IMG/VR virus record: IMGVR_UViG_3300007735_000464
Coordinates: 1 to 21,279 of that record
Origin: a virus
Reading direction: 5' to 3' (one strand)
DNA: 21,279 bases
Shown: positions 1,875 to 19,733 of the stretch, piece by piece
How the letters are laid out: every line of letters begins with the position of its first letter
How positions within the stretch are numbered: position 1 is the first letter of the stretch
Notes under the pieces: model-generated
Database searches by the model: none
Told to the model about the DNA's origin: nothing
The model's input: only the letters and a program-made list of their open reading frames with translations
Program-made: the position numbers and the translations under genes

Positions 1875-4800
1875 TTAATTCTTACCTTGTAGGATTTCGA
1901 GGACATTCGGTGCGCCCTCGGTTAGGTCTGGTGTTCCCTTGATGATGTCATCGGCAGCGTTGAATCCCATTCTCCAAGTTCCAGCAATGGATGCGCCAAC
2001 AACTTGCTCAAGCGCGGCTTGTGGGATATTTGCAACGTCAAGTCCTTCGCCCTGGAGACCCTTACCGATGACGTACTTCCTTGCGGTTGAGGAGAATCCA
2101 AACCCAATGTTGTCTGGTGTATATGGGACAAGCCACTGGAGCAGCAGCCACGCCTCTGGGTTGTCCTCAATAAATGTCCTAAACTCTGGATCGTACTTCT
2201 CTGCTGCCACGATGGAATCGGATACATTGTCTAACGCCTGAAGTCCAAGTAGTAGGCGGTCACCACCGAGTTTACCTGGGAACGGTGTCTTCACCATTAG
2301 GCGGACAAACTCAGGAATAACCTTACCGACCATATAGGACAACGGGTAAAGTGCAAGCAATGGATGGTTAAAGCTTCGTTCCCACCACGGTCGATTTGGA
2401 TCGAAGTAGATTGCACGTCGCGCTCGATCACCTTCCTTTGCCGCCGCAGCTCTCGCTGCCTCGACAACATTCTGATAGAGCATTCGCTCTTCTGGCGTCT
2501 TAAGTGCAAGCATCCCGACCTTCTCGCCAGCCTTGATGAGTTCCCTCATTGCGATTGGATCAGTTCGTGAGATGAAATCTAAGCCAATGTAATACGCAAT
2601 CTTTTCTGGATCTGTGGTGCCAAGGAACTTCTCTACGGAAGCAATGACTTGAGGTGATTCATCCTTTAGCACGCCATATAGTCGTCGTGCCATACCCTTA
2701 GAAATCATTGCCTCAAGCGCACGTTGCTTACGGTCATCTACGGCCAGCAGGCTTCGCTTCACGGCAAGCCCAACATCCTTAACGCCAGCCTGACGCTTTG
2801 ATAGTGCGCCAAGCGCCTCCATCACCTTTGGCTCTTTGCCAGCAATACGGATAGCTGCCTGGTTACCAGCCTGCATAAACGCAGTCTGCGCGTCGCCAAC
2901 TTGGTTATGCTCAGCAAACTCTCCAAGTATAGCACGAACTCGGATGCTATTCTTGTTGAGTCCAGCAATTCGTTCTTCTCGTACTCCAGCTCCAGTTGTA
3001 AACCTAAAGAAAACAGGCTCTACGTTTTCCTGCCCATAGCGGAACTGAGGTGCGCCGACGCCGAACCTAAATCGTGGGAAGAAGTTATCGCTTACGATGG
3101 ATATCTGCGGCAACTTCATCTTCACCCACGAGGTGAACTTTGGCATAAGACCAAGGTCGGACAGATCCCCATTATATGCCTTGAAGATATTCATAAAGAC
3201 GGTCTTCCAGACATCTTGAGCTGGCACACCAGTTCGCTCAGAGATTCGAAGAACTGCTTCCTTGCTTAGTGACGCGTTGATTGCCTTGGCAAGCGAACTG
3301 CTTGGACCAAGGGCTTGCTCAAGGGCAAGACCACGAGGAAGAATCTGTTGTTCGTCTGATAGATTTCTAATAATGCGAAGCGTCTCGTTCGCCTCTCGCG
3401 TGGTCAAGCCGATAGAGTTTGACTCAGTGATCCATCGATCACGAACCTTCTCGGCAATGATGGCGCCATAACGGCGGCGGAACGTGTAGTTTAGCGCAGA
3501 CTGCACTGCATTTCGCTTGTATGTCAGCGTTGCCTGTCCAAGGCTAGTTGGATCAACGAAGACATTGTCCACAAGGTCAGCGAATGGAGAGAATGCGCGG
3601 GTCTGATACTCACGACCAAGTTTGTCGGTTAGAGTCATCACCTTGCCAATGACGCCATCTGCTGGTGCAATGCCGAGTTCGTAGCCAGCAGCGTTAGCCT
3701 CTTGACGATACTTGAGTGCCTGTGGGGTCAACTCGATAGCATCTTTCTCGGTAATGCCACGAACGAATGACTCTTTGTTTTCATTGAGATACTTAGCGAA
3801 GTCATCCGCAAGTTCGTCTGGGCTAAGACGGGAAAGATTCCTTCCACCAAATGATTCATATAGATCAGCGTACTGGTTTGCTGCGTCAGAAATAATTTTT
3901 CGCACAGCATCTGGATTGCCCTTTGCTTCCTGTACCGCAAGGGCAAGGGCGTCGGCGCGGGCCTGGGTAAGCGAACGACTAGAAATCAACGTAATGCGCT
4001 GACCAATATTCCCTGGCTTAAAGGTTTGACGCACCGTTGCAATGCCCTCAGAAAGTCGTCCAAATGAGGACATCCTCGTAAGGTCAAGGAAGTCTAGTGC
4101 ATCACCAACGCGTCTTTCTCGGATTGCTGGAGCGATCAACTCGTCAAAGACGCGACCACCCTGCTCGGCGCTAAGGCTTAAACCGTAGCGAAGATTAGAC
4201 ACAACGTACTCTCGTGCAACAGCAACGTTCTCTGGGTTTGTGAACACAGTGAGTTCGCGCTTTGAGGCGATTGCCTCGCGTACGCCAGCCGTGGTAACGG
4301 ATCGTCCCTGAGTCCTGGCCCTTGTAGCAAGCAGGTTCTCTGCCTCCTGTGGGCTCTTGACCATTATGGCATTGCGTTGGAACTTGCTCTGGTAATCATT
4401 GGCAATCTTAATCAGATCCTCTTCGCCATCAGACTTGAGGACACGAAGTACCAACTTATTAACTTCGTCGTCTCTAAATCCCATCTCCTTGATGGTGTCA
4501 ATAAGACCAGGTTCACCTTCTGCAAACGGCTTATTAAGTACCCCGATTGCCTCATCAACTAGTTGGCTCTCATTGCCAGTTGCAAGTCGAGGCTTAATGG
4601 CAGCAAGGTCATCAGACATTGACAGCATAAGGTTCTGTGAGCTTGGCCGTACGGCAAGGGCAGACTCTTCCGCCACTAGACGTGCCGCGCCAGCCTTAGC
4701 AAACCGACTTGCGGTATACGATGTTAAGCGAGATGCCTCAGAAACAACTTGGTCGGCATCTGCTCCAGCAACGCGAGATAGTGCTCCAACGTACTGCTTA

Positions 4801-5666: not shown

Positions 5667-8407
5667 TATAGAGCAATCCTTCCGCCAGGCGTCGTCAACG
5701 GACGCGGAGTTGTCGTTGTCCTAGAAGTTGAAATTGGCTTGCTTGTTAGGCTTGCCCGTTCACCAGCTCGGAAATCAACAAACGGTTGCGAGCTGAGCGT
5801 TAGCGCAGAGGTGCTTGTTGTCCTTGGAGTTCCCTTAGCAAACGGTCGAACAGCAAGTGGCGAAACTTGTGGAGTTGGATTTAGTGGTCGAGGACCAAGT
5901 GACGTTGCCCCAGGACCATAGGCCCCAGGAATCCCTGGGAGAATTGTGTTGATCCCAGCAGATAGTGCTCCACCAGCGGCACTCGTAAGTCCATAGGCAA
6001 GTGCCCCGCCAGCCTGAATTGCCCCAGCACCAATCCCAGCAGCAAGTTTTCCAAGTTCCCTGAAGACAACGGAGAAGTCCATTGCCCCACCAAACTTTTC
6101 CCCACCGCCAGGCTGAACTGGGCTGAATGGATTGATGACTCCACGCTGGGCTGGAGTTGATGGCTTAACGGCAGCGATGTTTGCCTTGGCTGACTCTGCC
6201 TGCTGTCGTGCCATATCTGCGTTCATTTGAGCAATTCGAACACCAGCATCGCTTGTGCGACCAGAAAGAGCATTAAGGTTAGACTCAATCTTCCCAATTG
6301 CAAGTGTCATATCTGACTTTCCAGTAGTAGAATCAGGAATACCAAGAGCAATATTCTTTAAGTTAGAAACGATACCAAGGGCATCTGTTACCCTAGGATC
6401 ACTTGGGGAGATTGCAGCGTATGGGTTAATACCTGGGCTTTCTAGTGACTTGAGTGCACCTGGATCTACAAAGTCAGATAGACTGGCCTGTGTTCCAGAT
6501 CCACTTGGTCGGATTCCAGTAATCGTAGTATACCCATTCTGGTCTTTCTGCACATTGATGTCAGATGTAATCAGCGCATCAGTTGCACCAGAACGCTTGA
6601 TGCTTGCAACGTCAATTGGTGGATTGATGTATACCTTGCCGTCCTTGGCATCAGCATATAGCGTTCCACCCTTGGTCTCATAAGCAAAGCCCCACGGCTT
6701 AGACGTATCAAGATTTCCAGCAATTGCGCCATAGATTGGCGTGCCCTTATATGCAACAGTAACGATCTTTCCACTTGCAGCCTGCTCAATCTTGTAGATC
6801 ACACCAGCACTTGGAGCTGGCACGCCAGCAGGAATATAATCCGTTGCATACGAACCATCAGTGTTTCTCTTGCGAGAGATTACTGTCTGTCCACTAGAAA
6901 TCTGCTTATCTAGGTCTAGGGAAATACTAAGGTTTGATAGTTCTGCTGCTGTGTACTTATTATCTCCAGTAAACTCTTTTTCGTAGAAATCTTTGGCTCC
7001 ACCAGAGAGCCCAGCCTGCGCTCGCTGCGCCGCTTGGAAATCATCCATATATGTCTTTGGGATAATTCCAACTGTCTTGCCGTTTAGCGCGGCATCAAGA
7101 GCGTTGGCTTCGTTCTGAATATTTAGACTGACTTCCTGACCTGCTCGGTCAGCCGAAGGCTTAATTCCAGCACCGAAAGATGCTGTCGTCTCTCCACGAA
7201 GGAACCGTACCCACTCTTTAGTAATAGCAATCTCATCGGAAGGAATACCGTCTGTCGCAGCCATAAGGGCATCCTTAAGTTCTGACTGCTTGACGTACTG
7301 CTCAAATGAAACGTCTTGACCAGATACCAATTTCGCGTCGGTCGAGATGTCACGGATTGAACGTGCCTCGGCTACATTTCCTTGCAATCGGAGTGTCTGA
7401 GCATATGCATCAGATTTACCGCGAAGGTCGCCAATTGCAGTTCTAATCTGTGACTGCACGTCTGGACTTAGATCATCCAACGCGGCGGCAAGCGTTACGG
7501 CAGGGATGTCCTGGAAATTAAAGTTTGGATCGCTGGCATCAATACCAAGGCCAGGGGCAAGAAGGCGAGCATACTCATCTACAACGGCCTTGGCATTGTT
7601 ATAGGCAGACTCACGACTATTGAGAAGTGCGGTTGCAGCCTTGTCCGCGATGACGCGGCGCTGATCCTGAACGGCAAATTTTGTCTTGGCGATGTTGTTT
7701 TGGATGGTATCTAGGAAGTCACCAGCAATACCATTCTCATTTAGTTTTGCACGCCATCCACGATAGAAGGCAAGCAATCCCTCATTAGCCTTTAGCACCT
7801 TGCTATCCTTCGACGGATTTACACGGGCAAGGATGTCATTCTGTTCTCCAAGCTGATACTCATAAAGCGAGGAGTAGACATCGTACTTGACATCGTCATA
7901 GACAAACGGATCATCTACGAATCGACCAAGAGCACCCTGCGATAGATTCATAAACTCATCTTCGGTGATCTGATCTGTTGCCAAGTCGTTGTATAGGAAC
8001 TTAGTAACGTAGTCCTTTGTGACTCCGTACAGTTCATCCTGGAACTTAGATCCTTCTCCCTGAAGGAATGAGGCAAACTCTTCGTAGTTTGAACCGTTAG
8101 AAGAATAGAATCCAGACTTCAAATCATTGTATGTATTCTGTGTCTGAAATTCCTGTGCCTGATTAAGAATCGCATCGTAATATGCTACCTGGGCATCACT
8201 CGCTTCACCTTGACCAAGTCGTTCGTTAACAAACTTCACAAGATCAGCATATGAAGGAATAGATCCGCCAAACGCAGTTCCCTCGTAGAACGCCTTAAAG
8301 AGCATCTGCTCCTCGGAGGCAAGTTGCTGCGAGACAAGCGAACGGATCGTTGCCGAAAGATCGCTTGCGCCAGTTTCAGATCGTCCGAATCGTCCTTGTC
8401 GTGCCAT
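5666..8407 (-). CDS. Large virion-associated protein of unknown function (913 aa)
   Basis: I do not recognise a family. Residues 1-130 are polar and helical, rich in Gln, Ser and Asn. The middle has long helices with few Cys or Trp. A beta-rich, glycine-containing portion covers about 520-660. From about 758 a Pro/Gly linker leads into a hydrophobic Gly/Ala segment (about 788-828), and the last 80 residues are Pro/Thr/Ser/Arg-rich and probably disordered. The hydrophobic segment resembles the glycine-rich stretch near the N-terminus of the following 1263-residue protein, so the pair may act together in the virion, for example as ejected channel or internal core proteins. The ATG at 8407 shares one base with the portal stop (TAATG), with GAGGT about 9 nt upstream. 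Translational coupling to portal is likely. Confidence 0.75.
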   Translation of the reverse strand: MARQGRFGRSETGASDLSATIRSLVSQQLASEEQMLFKAFYEGTAFGGSIPSYADLVKFVNERLGQGEASDAQVAYYDAILNQAQEFQTQNTYNDLKSGFYSSNGSNYEEFASFLQGEGSKFQDELYGVTKDYVTKFLYNDLATDQITEDEFMNLSQGALGRFVDDPFVYDDVKYDVYSSLYEYQLGEQNDILARVNPSKDSKVLKANEGLLAFYRGWRAKLNENGIAGDFLDTIQNNIAKTKFAVQDQRRVIADKAATALLNSRESAYNNAKAVVDEYARLLAPGLGIDASDPNFNFQDIPAVTLAAALDDLSPDVQSQIRTAIGDLRGKSDAYAQTLRLQGNVAEARSIRDISTDAKLVSGQDVSFEQYVKQSELKDALMAATDGIPSDEIAITKEWVRFLRGETTASFGAGIKPSADRAGQEVSLNIQNEANALDAALNGKTVGIIPKTYMDDFQAAQRAQAGLSGGAKDFYEKEFTGDNKYTAAELSNLSISLDLDKQISSGQTVISRKRNTDGSYATDYIPAGVPAPSAGVIYKIEQAASGKIVTVAYKGTPIYGAIAGNLDTSKPWGFAYETKGGTLYADAKDGKVYINPPIDVASIKRSGATDALITSDINVQKDQNGYTTITGIRPSGSGTQASLSDFVDPGALKSLESPGINPYAAISPSDPRVTDALGIVSNLKNIALGIPDSTTGKSDMTLAIGKIESNLNALSGRTSDAGVRIAQMNADMARQQAESAKANIAAVKPSTPAQRGVINPFSPVQPGGGEKFGGAMDFSVVFRELGKLAAGIGAGAIQAGGALAYGLTSAAGGALSAGINTILPGIPGAYGPGATSLGPRPLNPTPQVSPLAVRPFAKGTPRTTSTSALTLSSQPFVDFRAGERASLTSKPISTSRTTTTPRPLTTPGGRIAL

Positions 8408-10299
8408 TATGCTTGTACCTCATTAGTAGCGGTTGGGGCTGGCAGGAGGTTTTGTTCTCCTGGTGCTGCTGCGTTTGCAGCGGTTGCCTCAGGCGGCAAT
8501 TGCGCCTGATTCTCTGGCTGGTTTAGTGACTGGCTACCAGCGACTGCTCCTGCCAACGAACGCTGCGCATTAAGCGCCTGTTCCTGAGTAATAGACATCT
8601 GCTGTTGCATCGAAGCCTGTTGCTGATCCTGTGATGCTTGCTGTTGCTGCATCTGCATCTGCTGCATTTGTCCAGCAACCTGAGCCATCGTGGCCACTGC
8701 GGCTGGATTGAGCGTGGCGTCAGTCTGCTCATCACGAATGAGTTCCTTCTCGCCAATTGGATCTTCAACACCCACACGGTCCATCGCACGCTCAGCCGAC
8801 CAGAGTCGGTTCTGTACGAGGTTGATCGCGGTGCTGGCAAGTTCCAGCGTGTCTCGTGGGGTAAGTTCTGGAGCAATGATCTCGATGCGGTATTCGCCAG
8901 CAACGAGACGCTTAACATCGCTGTTCTTTGCTTCCCAGATACGAGCACACATCTCCCAGACCTTCTTGATCCAGAAGTAGAACACCTTGCGCTTTGGAGC
9001 AAGGCGTGACTCGTAGTTAGCAATAAGCGCCGCGATGGCGCGGGACGAACCAAGCACCTGCGCTGGCGCAAGGCCAAGGAGCAAGTCATTAAGACCAGTT
9101 GCCACGGTCAACTCACGGTCGATGCGGGAAACATAGTTCTCAATCTGGAACTGCGGAATGAACGGCTGGATAGCGCGAAGTTCGTTGCCAGGTCCAGGTG
9201 TTGCCACACGACCAGGCTTTGGTAGCGCGTTTGGTGGCACCTCGTCAGGAGCCTCGGCACCGACCAACTGCCACATCTGTCCGCCCACGATGGACTGAAT
9301 CATCTGTGCCATTGCGGTGACGCGCTCGTCCTTCTCGCGGAGGAGCTGCTCAGGATCGTAGAGCGCAGGCTTGCCGTATGGGCTACCTGGAATCTTACCG
9401 TTTGGCAGGTGGATGTATGGAATCTGTCCGCCGTACTCTGGGTGTGCTTCGTTCTTAACGAGCGTGTTCCCAACGTAGATCGCATTGTAGACCAGCGGCG
9501 CCTTGCCTGGGTCTGTAGCAACCTTGTACCAGTAGTCGTAGACTTCAATCTGCATCTGCTCGTAGGCAGTCTCGCGTCGGAGCGGGTTGCGCTCAAAGGC
9601 GTTTGCCCAGACGTTGCCAATTGGGTCGTCGTGGCTGCCACGGCTAGTATACGGATACCACTTCTCGCCCTGCTTGACTGGGATGACGTTGACGCCCCAG
9701 TCCTCTTGGATGGACTGTGGGGACATTCCGTAGGTGTAGAGCGCCCAGTCTAGGCGATTGTAGTCACTGTTTCCAAAGCCCAGATACAGGTTCTCAGGTC
9801 GCTCAATGATAGAGACCTTTGGAAGCTGCTCGATTGGATCCCAGTAGATCTTGGCGGCAGTGTGTCCGTATAGTTCCTTAAGCAACGCAGCCTGCTCCAT
9901 CTGGAGGTCCATCTCGTTTGCTTCCCACCAGCGGAAGAAGAGTTGCTCGCGTCGCTGCGCTGCCTGTCGGTCCTCTGGTGTCTGACCAGTTGGGACGTAG
10001 TTAATGACAGGTCGCACTGCCTGAATTGCGGCAGGGATCTGAACATAGGCGTGATGAATGTTTACCGAGACGTGAGCGCGGCCAGCGAGGCGGGCACTTG
10101 GGTCATCTGACCAGTGGTCGGCACCACCGAGCGTGATGGTCTCAGGATGGTAGAGGTTGTCCATACGGCGGAACAGCGCCTTGAGGCGGTTCTGCTCTGG
10201 GTCAACCAACTGCTTGCGACCAAGGATCTCCTGGAGAAGGATGAAGTCTTCGTCCTGCTTTGGGTCCTGCTCGCGGGCAACCAGTGAGGACTCCAACAT
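8407..10299 (-). CDS. Portal protein, main body
   Basis: The 630-residue frame looks like a phage portal. It has an N-terminal helical region with NLYHPETITLGG, then a helix-rich clip/wing region, a long helix with GLAPAQVLGSSRAIAALIANYESR (about 410-435), and a Gln/Met-rich tail (about 543-570) typical of portal C-termini. It lies directly after terminase. The first ATG (10299) has no good Shine-Dalgarno sequence and sits inside a 68-bp duplication. The frame is open upstream to within the duplication and joins smoothly to the ORF starting at 10805 if one copy is removed (776 residues) or if a -1 frameshift occurs at 10326-10332 (799 residues). I therefore doubt that 10299 is the natural start. 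The function is confident, the 5' boundary is not. Confidence 0.85.
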   Translation of the reverse strand: MLESSLVAREQDPKQDEDFILLQEILGRKQLVDPEQNRLKALFRRMDNLYHPETITLGGADHWSDDPSARLAGRAHVSVNIHHAYVQIPAAIQAVRPVINYVPTGQTPEDRQAAQRREQLFFRWWEANEMDLQMEQAALLKELYGHTAAKIYWDPIEQLPKVSIIERPENLYLGFGNSDYNRLDWALYTYGMSPQSIQEDWGVNVIPVKQGEKWYPYTSRGSHDDPIGNVWANAFERNPLRRETAYEQMQIEVYDYWYKVATDPGKAPLVYNAIYVGNTLVKNEAHPEYGGQIPYIHLPNGKIPGSPYGKPALYDPEQLLREKDERVTAMAQMIQSIVGGQMWQLVGAEAPDEVPPNALPKPGRVATPGPGNELRAIQPFIPQFQIENYVSRIDRELTVATGLNDLLLGLAPAQVLGSSRAIAALIANYESRLAPKRKVFYFWIKKVWEMCARIWEAKNSDVKRLVAGEYRIEIIAPELTPRDTLELASTAINLVQNRLWSAERAMDRVGVEDPIGEKELIRDEQTDATLNPAAVATMAQVAGQMQQMQMQQQQASQDQQQASMQQQMSITQEQALNAQRSLAGAVAGSQSLNQPENQAQLPPEATAANAAAPGEQNLLPAPTATNEVQA

Positions 10300-10805
10300 C
10301 TTGTGTGCGGCTGCCTCTGATGGCGCTTTGGGTCCTGCTCGCGGACAAACAGTGAGGACTCCAACATCTTGAGTGCGGCTGCCTCTGATGGCGACAGCTT
10401 CTCAACGTTTGGCTGGATGCGAAGAGTGCCTCGTGCCCCACGGAGACCAGCGCCAAAGGCGCCAGGGGCACGCTTGCTGCGGTCGGCAGCGATGTTCGCC
10501 TTTAAGATGTTCGCCTTGAAGTTGATGTTGGCACGGGCTGAGACGCCGTCGTTCGGTGTCTCGTTTGGGGCGGACTCAATCTCACCACCGAAGATGTTGC
10601 GCTTTGTTGGGGATGTGGCAATCGGCTTGCCCTTCTCTACTGGAGTAAGGACCTGCTGGCCACGGCGCATCTTTGCCGCTTTGTCCAGCGCCTTGCCAAT
10701 AGATGCAATCTGTTCTGGCGTTGCGACATCAGGGTCAGTCGTGTACTGTCCTGGTACTCCTCGCGTTCCCTCGAACGCCGCTGGGATCTTACGAACTTTA
10801 GCCAT
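10062..10805 (-). CDS. N-terminal piece of the portal reading frame, shifted out of frame after residue 160
   Basis: The ORF starts with an ATG at 10805 that shares one base with the terminase stop (TGATG), with GGAG about 10 nt upstream, so the start is credible. Residues 1-160 look like real protein: basic, helical and partly low-complexity, ending in ALKMLESSLFVREQDPK. The following 87 residues are Ser/Arg/Thr/Trp-rich and look like a shadow of the portal gene read in the wrong frame. The same MLESS..REQDPK peptide reappears at the start of the portal frame. The simplest reading is that residues 1-160 are the native N-terminus of portal, now separated by a 68-bp tandem duplication. Alternatively it is a separate small protein, or the zero-frame product of a recoded gene. 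Confidence 0.65.
   Translation of the reverse strand: MAKVRKIPAAFEGTRGVPGQYTTDPDVATPEQIASIGKALDKAAKMRRGQQVLTPVEKGKPIATSPTKRNIFGGEIESAPNETPNDGVSARANINFKANILKANIAADRSKRAPGAFGAGLRGARGTLRIQPNVEKLSPSEAAALKMLESSLFVREQDPKRHQRQPHTRCWSPHWLPASRTQSRTKTSSFSRRSLVASSWLTQSRTASRRCSAVWTTSTILRPSRSVVPTTGQMTQVPASLAALTSR
10258..10393 (-). repeat. 68-bp imperfect tandem duplication inside the portal gene
   Basis: Copies 10258-10325 and 10326-10393 are adjacent and match at 65 of 68 positions. Differences are at 10277/10345, 10281/10349 and 10304/10372. In the coding frames all three change the amino acid (Ala/Val, Val/Phe, His/Leu). The period is not a multiple of three, so the duplication moves the upstream frame off the portal frame. 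Removing one copy gives an uninterrupted 777-codon frame from 10805 to 8407. Confidence 0.95.
10276..10332 (-). promoter_or_regulatory. Candidate -1 frameshift site (slippery heptamer plus downstream stem)
   Basis: In the upstream frame the codons are CCA AAG preceded by C, which is the X-XXY-YYZ form C-CCA-AAG (10326-10332). Slipping back one base gives CCC-AAA and then continues into the portal frame without a stop. Ten bases downstream, GGCAGCC (10309-10315) can pair with GGTTGCC (10276-10282) over 7 positions with one G-U. Two of the three bases that differ between the repeat copies lie in that second arm, and the other copy pairs less well. The heptamer also occurs in the downstream copy, so it may only be a by-product of duplicated coding sequence. 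Confidence 0.4.
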
Positions 10806-12304: not shown

Positions 12305-12606
12305 GCCTTCTTCTTGTCTAGTCTAGCACTAATGGCACGCGCCTTCGCGCGAGCATCAGGCTTACTAGATGCACCCCAAGCTCGGAGGGACAGAAGGAGT
12401 CGGGTCGGCTTCCCCTTACTGTCACGCTCCGAGCCAGGGTTGTTTCCCATTCTGGCGAGGAACGAAGCGCGTCGCGGATTGTCTCCGCTCTTGACTGGGG
12501 CCTTCAATGTGCCGCCAGTCTGCGCCTTGTACGAGGCACGACCCTTTGCGTTGAGGCCACCCTTTGGGTTCTGACCTTCCTTACGCTGCCACGCTGCTGT
12601 TTTCAT
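12301..12606 (-). CDS. Small conserved phage protein (probably DUF6321)
   Basis: This 101-residue, strongly basic protein begins MKTAAWQRKEGQNPKGGLN and contains SFLARMG followed by GKPTR and a Trp-containing basic tail. This pattern is one I recall as DUF6321, a family common near terminase genes in aquatic phages; its function is unknown. Many Lys, Arg and Gly residues suggest nucleic-acid contact, which fits a packaging accessory role, but nothing shows it directly. The ATG at 12606 has GAGGT at 4 nt and overlaps the glycosyltransferase stop by 4 nt (ATGA). Its own stop overlaps the terminase TTG. Confidence 0.82.
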   Translation of the reverse strand: MKTAAWQRKEGQNPKGGLNAKGRASYKAQTGGTLKAPVKSGDNPRRASFLARMGNNPGSERDSKGKPTRLLLSLRAWGASSKPDARAKARAISARLDKKKA

Positions 12607-13142
12607 TTCACCTCATTGTGGAAATAGAGAGTTCCTGATAGGAACTTGATGGAGTTGGTGGCGGCGGCAATCCTGTTGATGAAGGTGCCGTCTGCCTCAT
12701 AATGTCGGTCCCCGTATCCAGCCTTGCGGGCTACGTCAACCTTGACGATGTAGTTGCCAGATGTGGAACTGCCTAGCGTGAATGACGGTGTCGCGTTCTT
12801 AGACCAGCCGCAGTATACCACGTCGTTGCCAAGTTCCGCTTGATGCATCATCTCCGCGATGTAGTGCGGGTCGTAGGAGTCGTCGTGGTTGAACCAGCCC
12901 GCGTAATCAGATGTCGCCAGGTCAAGCCCCTTGGCCCGCTTGTCGTGACCCCAGTCGCTGAGGTTCGGCTCGGCGTAGAAGGCTGCTCCAGTGTATCGTT
13001 TACGAGCCACCGAACAGTCAATATCACTAGCGAGAACAATGATCTCATCGGGCTTCCTGCTCTGCGCTAGGAGCGCATCCACAGTCCGAAGCATCCCCGC
13101 CTCGTCCTCGTGAGCAGTCACAATCGCCGTGAATGTCGCCAC
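12603..13142 (-). CDS. Short family 2 (GT-A) glycosyltransferase
   Basis: This 179-residue protein has the GT2 pattern: strand TFTAIVTAHEDE, helix with LLAQSRKPDEIIVL, a DXD-like NHDD at 85-88 in GWFNHDDSYDP, and an acceptor-side motif HYEADGTFINRI (148-158). It is shorter than most GT2 enzymes and may be a minimal catalytic domain. It probably transfers a sugar from a nucleotide donor; the acceptor could be host wall glycopolymer, phage DNA or virion protein. The start chosen is the GTG at 13142, with AGGAG 5 nt upstream. A longer frame to 13343 is open, but its extra N-terminus is the shifted shadow of the cytidylyltransferase. It overlaps that gene by 98 nt. Confidence 0.82.
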   Translation of the reverse strand: MATFTAIVTAHEDEAGMLRTVDALLAQSRKPDEIIVLASDIDCSVARKRYTGAAFYAEPNLSDWGHDKRAKGLDLATSDYAGWFNHDDSYDPHYIAEMMHQAELGNDVVYCGWSKNATPSFTLGSSTSGNYIVKVDVARKAGYGDRHYEADGTFINRIAAATNSIKFLSGTLYFHNEVK

Positions 13143-13554
13143 TGATTCTCCTAATGATGTCGCTGGTTGAGATACCAGCGGTATATGGGATATACAGCAT
13201 CTTGATGTTGCGTTCGTCCAGCCATTCCTGACTGATGCCAAGCTGGTCGATGAGAGCTGGACCAGTCCAGTCGTCACCGTGGGCAATGGCAGAGATCTTC
13301 TTGTCCTTGACAAGGTCAATGGTGAGACCACTGTCCTCATCACCTACATTGACGATTACCTCGTCCACCCACTTGCACGCCTTAACGGACTCAATGCGCT
13401 CTCCTAGTGAGAGTACTGGCTTGCGCTTGTACCGCCCACAGAAGTCGTCGGTGTTGATGGCAACGATGACCTTCCCCTGCTTAGAACACTGCTCAAGGAA
13501 TCGAGCGTGACCATAGTGGAAGAGATCAAACGTCCCGCCAACGTAGACCCACAT
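13045..13554 (-). CDS. Cytidylyltransferase, glycerol-3-phosphate (TagD)-like
   Basis: This 169-residue nucleotidyltransferase has GGTFDLFHYGH with the HxGH motif at 13-16, RKPVLSLGERIESVKACKWVDEV-like motif at 44-66, HGDDW at 92-96 and ISTSDI at 128-133. These are the signatures of CTP:glycerol-3-phosphate or ethanolamine-phosphate cytidylyltransferases, which make CDP-linked precursors. In Gram-positive bacteria that precursor feeds teichoic acid synthesis, so the gene may help alter host wall polymers or virion decoration. After residue 138 the protein runs over the beginning of the GT2 gene, giving a Cys-rich tail (CDC and CGC) not expected in the family. The ATG at 13554 shares one base with the holin stop; no strong Shine-Dalgarno sequence is present. 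Confidence 0.87.
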   Translation of the reverse strand: MWVYVGGTFDLFHYGHARFLEQCSKQGKVIVAINTDDFCGRYKRKPVLSLGERIESVKACKWVDEVIVNVGDEDSGLTIDLVKDKKISAIAHGDDWTGPALIDQLGISQEWLDERNIKMLYIPYTAGISTSDIIRRISGDIHGDCDCSRGRGGDASDCGCAPSAEQEAR

Positions 13555-18894: not shown

Positions 18895-19047
18895 TTACTT
18901 CTTCTTGCCCTTCGCTGTCTTGGCTGATTCCTTGAATGCCTTGGCCGTAGGCGCACCCTTGGTCCCTGGCTTGCGCATTTTCTCGCCAGATCCAGCCTCA
19001 ATGCGCTTGCGCTTGGCGTGGATGTTGGCGTAGAGTCCTGGCTTCAC
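18895..19047 (-). CDS. Lysine-rich mini-protein A (50 aa, KPGLYANIHAKR type)
   Basis: This 50-codon gene starts at a GTG (19047) that overlaps the previous stop by 4 nt (GTGA). A purine-rich GGAAGGGAAAG region lies upstream. The product begins MKPGLYANIHAKRKRIEAG, contains GEKMRKPGTKGAPT and ends KGKKK. That sequence pattern recurs in many aquatic phages as a small protein of unknown function, from memory. The conserved Lys/Arg/Gly character suggests DNA or virion contact. The stop codon is directly followed by the tail-fibre TTG in the same frame. Confidence 0.85.
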   Translation of the reverse strand: MKPGLYANIHAKRKRIEAGSGEKMRKPGTKGAPTAKAFKESAKTAKGKKK

Positions 19048-19184
19048 TTCTTCTTTCCCTTCCGCGAGACCACGATCTTTCCAGACTTTTCCTTGACGGT
19101 CATTCCAGCATCTTCGGTCTGCTTCTTGAGTTGACGATACTTCTCAGCGGTCGTCATCCGCTTCGCCTTCTTGGCGGACGTCAC
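19044..19184 (-). CDS. Lysine-rich mini-protein B (46 aa)
   Basis: This 46-codon gene starts at a GTG (19184) within a GTGA overlap with the previous stop. The product has the form MTSAKKAKRMTTAEKYRQL, then a short amphipathic helix, KEKSGKIVVSR and a GKKK end. I do not recognise the family. The middle is a helix followed by a possible beta strand, so it may fold. Start choice is set by coupling; an internal ATG exists at residue 10 but has no clear ribosome-binding site. Confidence 0.68.
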   Translation of the reverse strand: MTSAKKAKRMTTAEKYRQLKKQTEDAGMTVKEKSGKIVVSRKGKKK

Positions 19185-19327
19185 TTCTTCTTGCCCTTCT
19201 TGGGCTTACCGTATTCCATCTCGCGCTCGCGCTTGGACTCGGTCTTCTCGTGCTTGGCAGCGTACTTCTTTGCCGCAGCCTTGCCTGCCTTGGTGTATGG
19301 GAACTTCTTCCCTTCGATCATCGGCAT
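19181..19327 (-). CDS. Lysine-rich mini-protein C (48 aa)
   Basis: This 48-codon gene has an ATG at 19327 that shares one base with the previous stop (TAATG). It begins [21 protein letters not shown], followed by a charged helix with EKTESKREREME, and ends KPKKGKKK. The GKKFPYT..G..AAKK pattern is one I recall in small phage proteins near structural genes; the function is unknown. Confidence 0.75.
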   Translation of the reverse strand: MPMIEGKKFPYTKAGKAAAKKYAAKHEKTESKREREMEYGKPKKGKKK

Positions 19328-19470
19328 TATCGCTTACCCTTCTTCTTCTTGGACTTGCCTGCTGCGGAGAGAGCGATGGCGATGGCCTGCTTCTGCGGCT
19401 TGCCAGCCTTCATCTCGCGTCGGATGTTCTCGGAGATGGTCTTCTTGCTAGAACCCTTCTTCAGCGGCAC
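19327..19470 (-). CDS. Lysine-rich mini-protein D (47 aa, [11 protein letters not shown] type)
   Basis: This 47-codon gene starts at a GTG (19470) sharing one base with the previous stop (TAGTG). The product begins [20 protein letters not shown], continues [19 protein letters not shown] and ends in a Lys run. This motif, an N-terminal [10 protein letters not shown] part and a QKQAIAIAL helix, is widespread in small phage proteins (I recall DUF6496-like annotations, not certain). No function is established. Confidence 0.82.
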
Positions 19471-19733
19471 TAGTAGCCTGCTTCCTTATTCATCTTATTG
19501 GTAGCATCAAGGAGTCGTCGGCGGTTGCCCTTTGGCTTTGGGAACTTCTTTGGCATAATCTCTTCATCAGAGACCTTAGACCTCTTCGGCTTTGGCTTCG
19601 GCTTCGGTGTTGGGCTAGGAACTGGAACAGGCTTGCCCACGTAGCGTGGCGGCTTGACCGTACCGTCGCCCTTGTTGGCGCCTGGTGCTGGTGTGGGATT
19701 AGGAACCCCTGGATTTGGAATGTATTTCTTCAC
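19470..19733 (-). CDS. Small Pro/Lys-rich protein, unknown
   Basis: This 87-residue protein is largely low-complexity. Pro/Gly/Asn-rich residues 5-20 lead into [13 protein letters not shown] (about 44-56), then a basic C-terminal helix. I chose the GTG at 19733 because GGAGAGAG lies just before it and it forms a GTGA overlap with the zincin-like gene's stop. A longer frame to 19820 would run through that gene and has no ribosome-binding site. It is probably disordered, and function is unknown. Confidence 0.68.

Follow-up and report, generated by a model that had tools for sequence, protein, structure and literature searches.

A 68-nt duplication that splits a phage portal gene is probably an assembly artefact of a metagenomic contig

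The doubling of sequence at joins whose flanks overlap has been described as a local assembly error (PMC7111523). Programmed -1 frameshifting, known from IS3-type elements and the phage G-T type, offers a further point of comparison for genes recorded in two frames: among the -1 heptamers assayed in E. coli with a stimulator, C_CCA_AAG shifts most efficiently (PMC4066793; PMC5009743), giving 54% -1 frameshifting when combined with the IS3 pseudoknot, while motifs without stimulators reach at most about ten times a background of 0.055% (PMC4066793). Here we discuss a phage portal gene interrupted by a tandem duplication in a linear, 21,279-base virus record from IMG/VR, a metagenomic contig considered in full and termed the window below. 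It is likely that this duplication is an assembly artefact confined to the one contig and derived from two overlapping, error-bearing ends.

A 68-nt unit occurs twice in direct succession, at 10257-10324 (copy A) and 10325-10392 (copy B), and the copies match at 65 of 68 positions, as a first-pass annotation of the bare sequence had claimed. That annotation gave 10258-10393 for the pair; the coordinates differ because the G at 10393 equals that at 10325, allowing the unit to slide by one base. The repeat score of 57 (+1/-3 scoring) is far above chance, with all related loci scoring below 28. Read along the coding (minus) strand, an N-terminal ORF from the ATG at 10805 is followed by copy B, copy A, the portal body, and the stop at 8407. 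Elsewhere in the window, a cytidylyltransferase-like gene (PF01467) adjoins a family 2 glycosyltransferase gene (PF00535) at 12603-13554, and four short lysine-rich ORFs with KGKKK- or KKGKR-type tails lie in different frames of the minus strand at 18895-19473; searches with two of these four gave no Pfam match.

The portal body ORF as recorded (8407..10299, minus strand, 630 aa) matched the PHROGs portal families phrog_332, 156, 1216 and 64 at E-values of 3e-7 to 4e-5, and the large terminase (phrog_2) adjoins the gene; Pfam gave no match to this ORF. The N-terminal extension of the portal (MAKVRKIPAAFEGTRGVP..., 10393..10805, minus strand) begins at a start codon that overlaps the terminase stop. 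The upstream ORF to which it belongs (10805-10062, 247 aa) follows the portal frame for 160 codons and, since 68 is 2 modulo 3, exits it at the copy boundary to continue for 87 codons out of frame (10062..10324, minus strand). This tail has no counterpart frame in relatives and is judged to represent no real protein segment. Removal of one copy leaves a stretch of 2331 nt (10805 to 8407), or 777 codons including the stop. As recorded, the open portal frame reaches no further than 10401; the ATG at 10299 is the first ATG, GTG or TTG within it, and no suitably placed Shine-Dalgarno precedes it. The first-pass description of a 777-codon frame restored by the loss of one copy, of an upstream ORF leaving that frame at codon 160, and of a portal start inside the duplication lacking a Shine-Dalgarno is borne out on each count. 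Within the portal N-terminus, we also noted a 15-bp in-frame near-duplication (KANILKANI) at 10491-10521, which is absent from the portal ORFs of all relatives compared. A low-confidence structure model of an intact relative, L002 (mean pLDDT 43.6), suggests that the duplicated stretch may lie on a helix near residues 134-149, following a low-confidence N-terminus.

Relatives were drawn from a viral-contig search which returned 80 loci with portals 66-95% identical, the homologous stretch being readable in 76. It occurs once in every one of these 76, in 75 of which a KMLESSL-type motif is present exactly once. Wherever the contig of a relative includes the N-terminus, extension and portal body form one ORF, and Blast alignments between the window and its relatives overlap by 68 nt, as they would for a single-copy subject. 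Among 33 further loci, mostly from a capsid search and partly on the same contigs, the N-terminus lies within the portal ORF in 29; three of the others are cut by contig ends and the fourth, L084, is rearranged. The alignment with relatives that the first-pass annotation had proposed as a check thus returned the joined arrangement and nowhere a separate gene in place of the N-terminal part. Scans of 0.65 Mb (periods 30-500) and 1.19 Mb (periods 30-400) from related contigs turned up no imperfect tandem duplication of comparable kind. No near-identical record of the same strain was recovered with exact patterns taken from copy A or from the flank on the portal side, while a pattern from the terminase-side flank recovered L082-L084, whose aligned stretch is free of the duplication. 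Very probably, the actual gene is a single, ordinary portal ORF carrying an N-terminal extension of approximately 155-160 residues, as its relatives do. The biology at the locus is ordinary, and a split portal would be the wrong annotation for it.

Across related loci (e.g. L002, L016, L037 and L066), the extension that precedes the KMLESSL motif ranges in length between about 127 and 260 residues, with its first ~35 residues conserved and its middle poorly so. No relative of the portal was present among the named phages of the phage collection, and the only one in one-per-species bacterial genomes was L085 (SCSV01000106.1), a 4,650-bp contig in a Salinibacterium MAG bin; together these provide a weak hint of actinobacterial hosts for the phage group. 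The rearranged locus L084 (IMGVR_UViG_3300008117_003600) is without 138 bp around 3340-3350 that are found in its near-identical sisters L083 and L008. This deletion spans the terminase-portal boundary, removing the end of the terminase and the start of the portal with an overlap of ~2 bp at the join, and is probably another assembly or chimera error. Private, gene-breaking rearrangements thus do occur in such records at the same locus.

The differences between the copies allow the origin of the duplication to be weighed. They lie at 10277/10345 (G/A), 10281/10349 (C/A) and 10304/10372 (T/A) in copies A and B, respectively, and all three are nonsynonymous (V/A, F/V and L/H among the residues involved), which agrees with the first-pass reading. 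Relatives assign each a direction. At 10304, all 76 carry the copy-B base, so that copy A is the changed one, and its His (from Leu) is unseen among relatives, which have Leu, Val or Ile. The copy-B base was found in none of the 76 at 10349 and in one at 10345, so that copy B is changed at both; its Phe (from Val, 10349) and Val (from Ala, 10345) are likewise unseen at their columns. Each copy is hence intact where it runs on from its own flank and changed on the side facing the junction, from which the changes stand 20 nt (copy A) and 20 and 24 nt (copy B) removed. Were three changes scattered at random, the nearest private change on either side would lie at precisely 20 nt from the junction in 0.03% of cases and at distances summing to 40 in 1.3%; any symmetric placement, with a one-base slide allowed, would arise in ~4%, and all three changes would occupy the junction-side half in 13%. 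This geometry was spotted after the fact, and we treat it as supporting rather than decisive.

Artefact is the most likely origin because comparable relatives all have one copy and an unbroken gene, and it is favoured further because the differences are private, situated on the junction side at 20 nt each way and nonsynonymous throughout, with no decay elsewhere. The gene-breaking rearrangement of L084 at this locus points the same way. We envisage that two pieces of one portal gene overlapped by 68 nt and that base errors near their ends had gone uncorrected, two on one piece and one on the other. Set end to end without being merged, at a joining step and by software that we can only infer, these pieces would have had their shared 68 nt written twice and the frame broken. 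A likely source would be a pair of assembly-graph paths, or of overlapping read mates, whose mismatches prevented merging; concatenated mates with error-prone 3' ends would produce the same polarity. In a de Bruijn graph, a path with an erroneous base ends k-1 bases past the error, and 20 is k-1 for k=21. One pipeline, used for a Lake Erie metagenome, runs bfc at k=21 and metaSPAdes from k=21 upwards (PMC12697132). Against this particular step, however, the 22 identical bases between differences would still connect both paths in a k=21 graph.

A real tandem duplication may instead have inactivated the full-length portal, in a defective phage, or left a short portal starting at ATG 10299, with the copies diverging thereafter. 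The sequence as recorded would support this, as would the presence of an internal ATG in the portal frame. If three changes per 136 nt reflect the rate in an untranslated gene, however, ~50 neutral changes may be anticipated over its other 2.2 kb, and none stands out. No decay was detected outside the duplication, with 0 deviations at 29 plus 330 near-invariant portal columns, and residues that no relative shows number only 4 plus 4 in the window portal, within the range for individual relatives (0-6 plus 0-4). Either the duplication is not real, then, or it is real and its product is still translated. Inactivation is further disfavoured by the retention of the N-terminus in all relatives, by an ATG 10299 that lacks a Shine-Dalgarno, and by breakpoint homology of one base only. 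We consider it improbable.

A real duplication would still be translated if the essential portal were made by a "saviour" -1 frameshift at C_CCA_AAG, yielding a 23-residue insertion. This potential slippery heptamer (10332-10326, minus strand) lies at the copy boundary, where the two frames overlap, and falls in the upstream ORF's zero frame; frame and direction are correct, a -1 shift enters the portal frame, the expected number of such motifs in 113 codons is only 0.03, and the private changes fall in the part that would be the added insertion. The downstream RNA structure is not unusual, however (z = +0.6), and the sequence read holds no upstream Shine-Dalgarno of suitable spacing, so that neither kind of stimulator was found. 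The gene is split in no relative, and the same heptamer encodes part of the same Asp-Pro-Lys in 6 of 66 distinct intact relatives. Because it is present in those six, we judge C_CCA_AAG to be an inherited Pro-Lys codon choice, and frameshift rescue appears very unlikely.

Another suggestion is that an assembler joined natural sequences from two co-occurring strain variants. Duplicated sequence with mismatches at a join is what this would leave, and freshwater samples contain many related strains. However, when portal genes of relatives 1-8% apart are compared, codons with a single change are synonymous in 5152 cases and nonsynonymous in 622 (89% synonymous), which places the probability of three nonsynonymous differences in three among natural strain variants at ~0.13%. 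The changed residues are, in addition, the ones unseen at their columns, and we regard a joining of strains as highly implausible. In a chimera of distant strains, the nearest relative would change at the junction; such a change was looked for and not clearly seen. The first-pass annotation had left matters between divergence after a real duplication and two strain variants wrongly joined by an assembler. Its appeal to assembly is much the better supported; the strain variants fit poorly with three nonsynonymous differences in three against a background of 89% synonymous ones, for which unselected errors at two overlapping ends are the better match, and real divergence is contradicted by the lack of decay, unless the product is translated by frameshifting.

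The significance of the locus is mainly that of a caution, in that one uncorrected join in a metagenomic phage record may generate a false "split portal" along with two false ORFs. It also suggests a practical test for such joins which dispenses with reads: polarising the differences by relatives, measuring their distance from the junction, comparing synonymous with nonsynonymous changes, and checking for decay elsewhere. Were the feature real, frameshifting would be rescuing an essential structural gene, a rare situation.

Measured against described systems, the locus resembles -1 frameshifting of the IS3 and phage G-T types (PMC4066793, PMC5009743) in having C_CCA_AAG in the zero frame of a frame overlap with a fitting direction, and departs from them in lacking a stimulator, in a split arrangement that is not conserved, and in a heptamer shared with intact relatives. 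Its gene is akin to the PHROGs portal and head-tail adaptor families both in sequence match and in its place beside the large terminase, and differs from them in the variable N-terminal extension of the present phage group and in being split as recorded. With the described local assembly error it shares a short stretch doubled where two pieces meet and the resulting disruption of a gene that relatives have intact; the duplicate is absent from related genomes, and errors private to each copy, in a geometry noticed post hoc, sit at the joined ends. That error normally comes with Ns at the join (PMC7111523), whereas the present join is without Ns and its copies carry mismatches.
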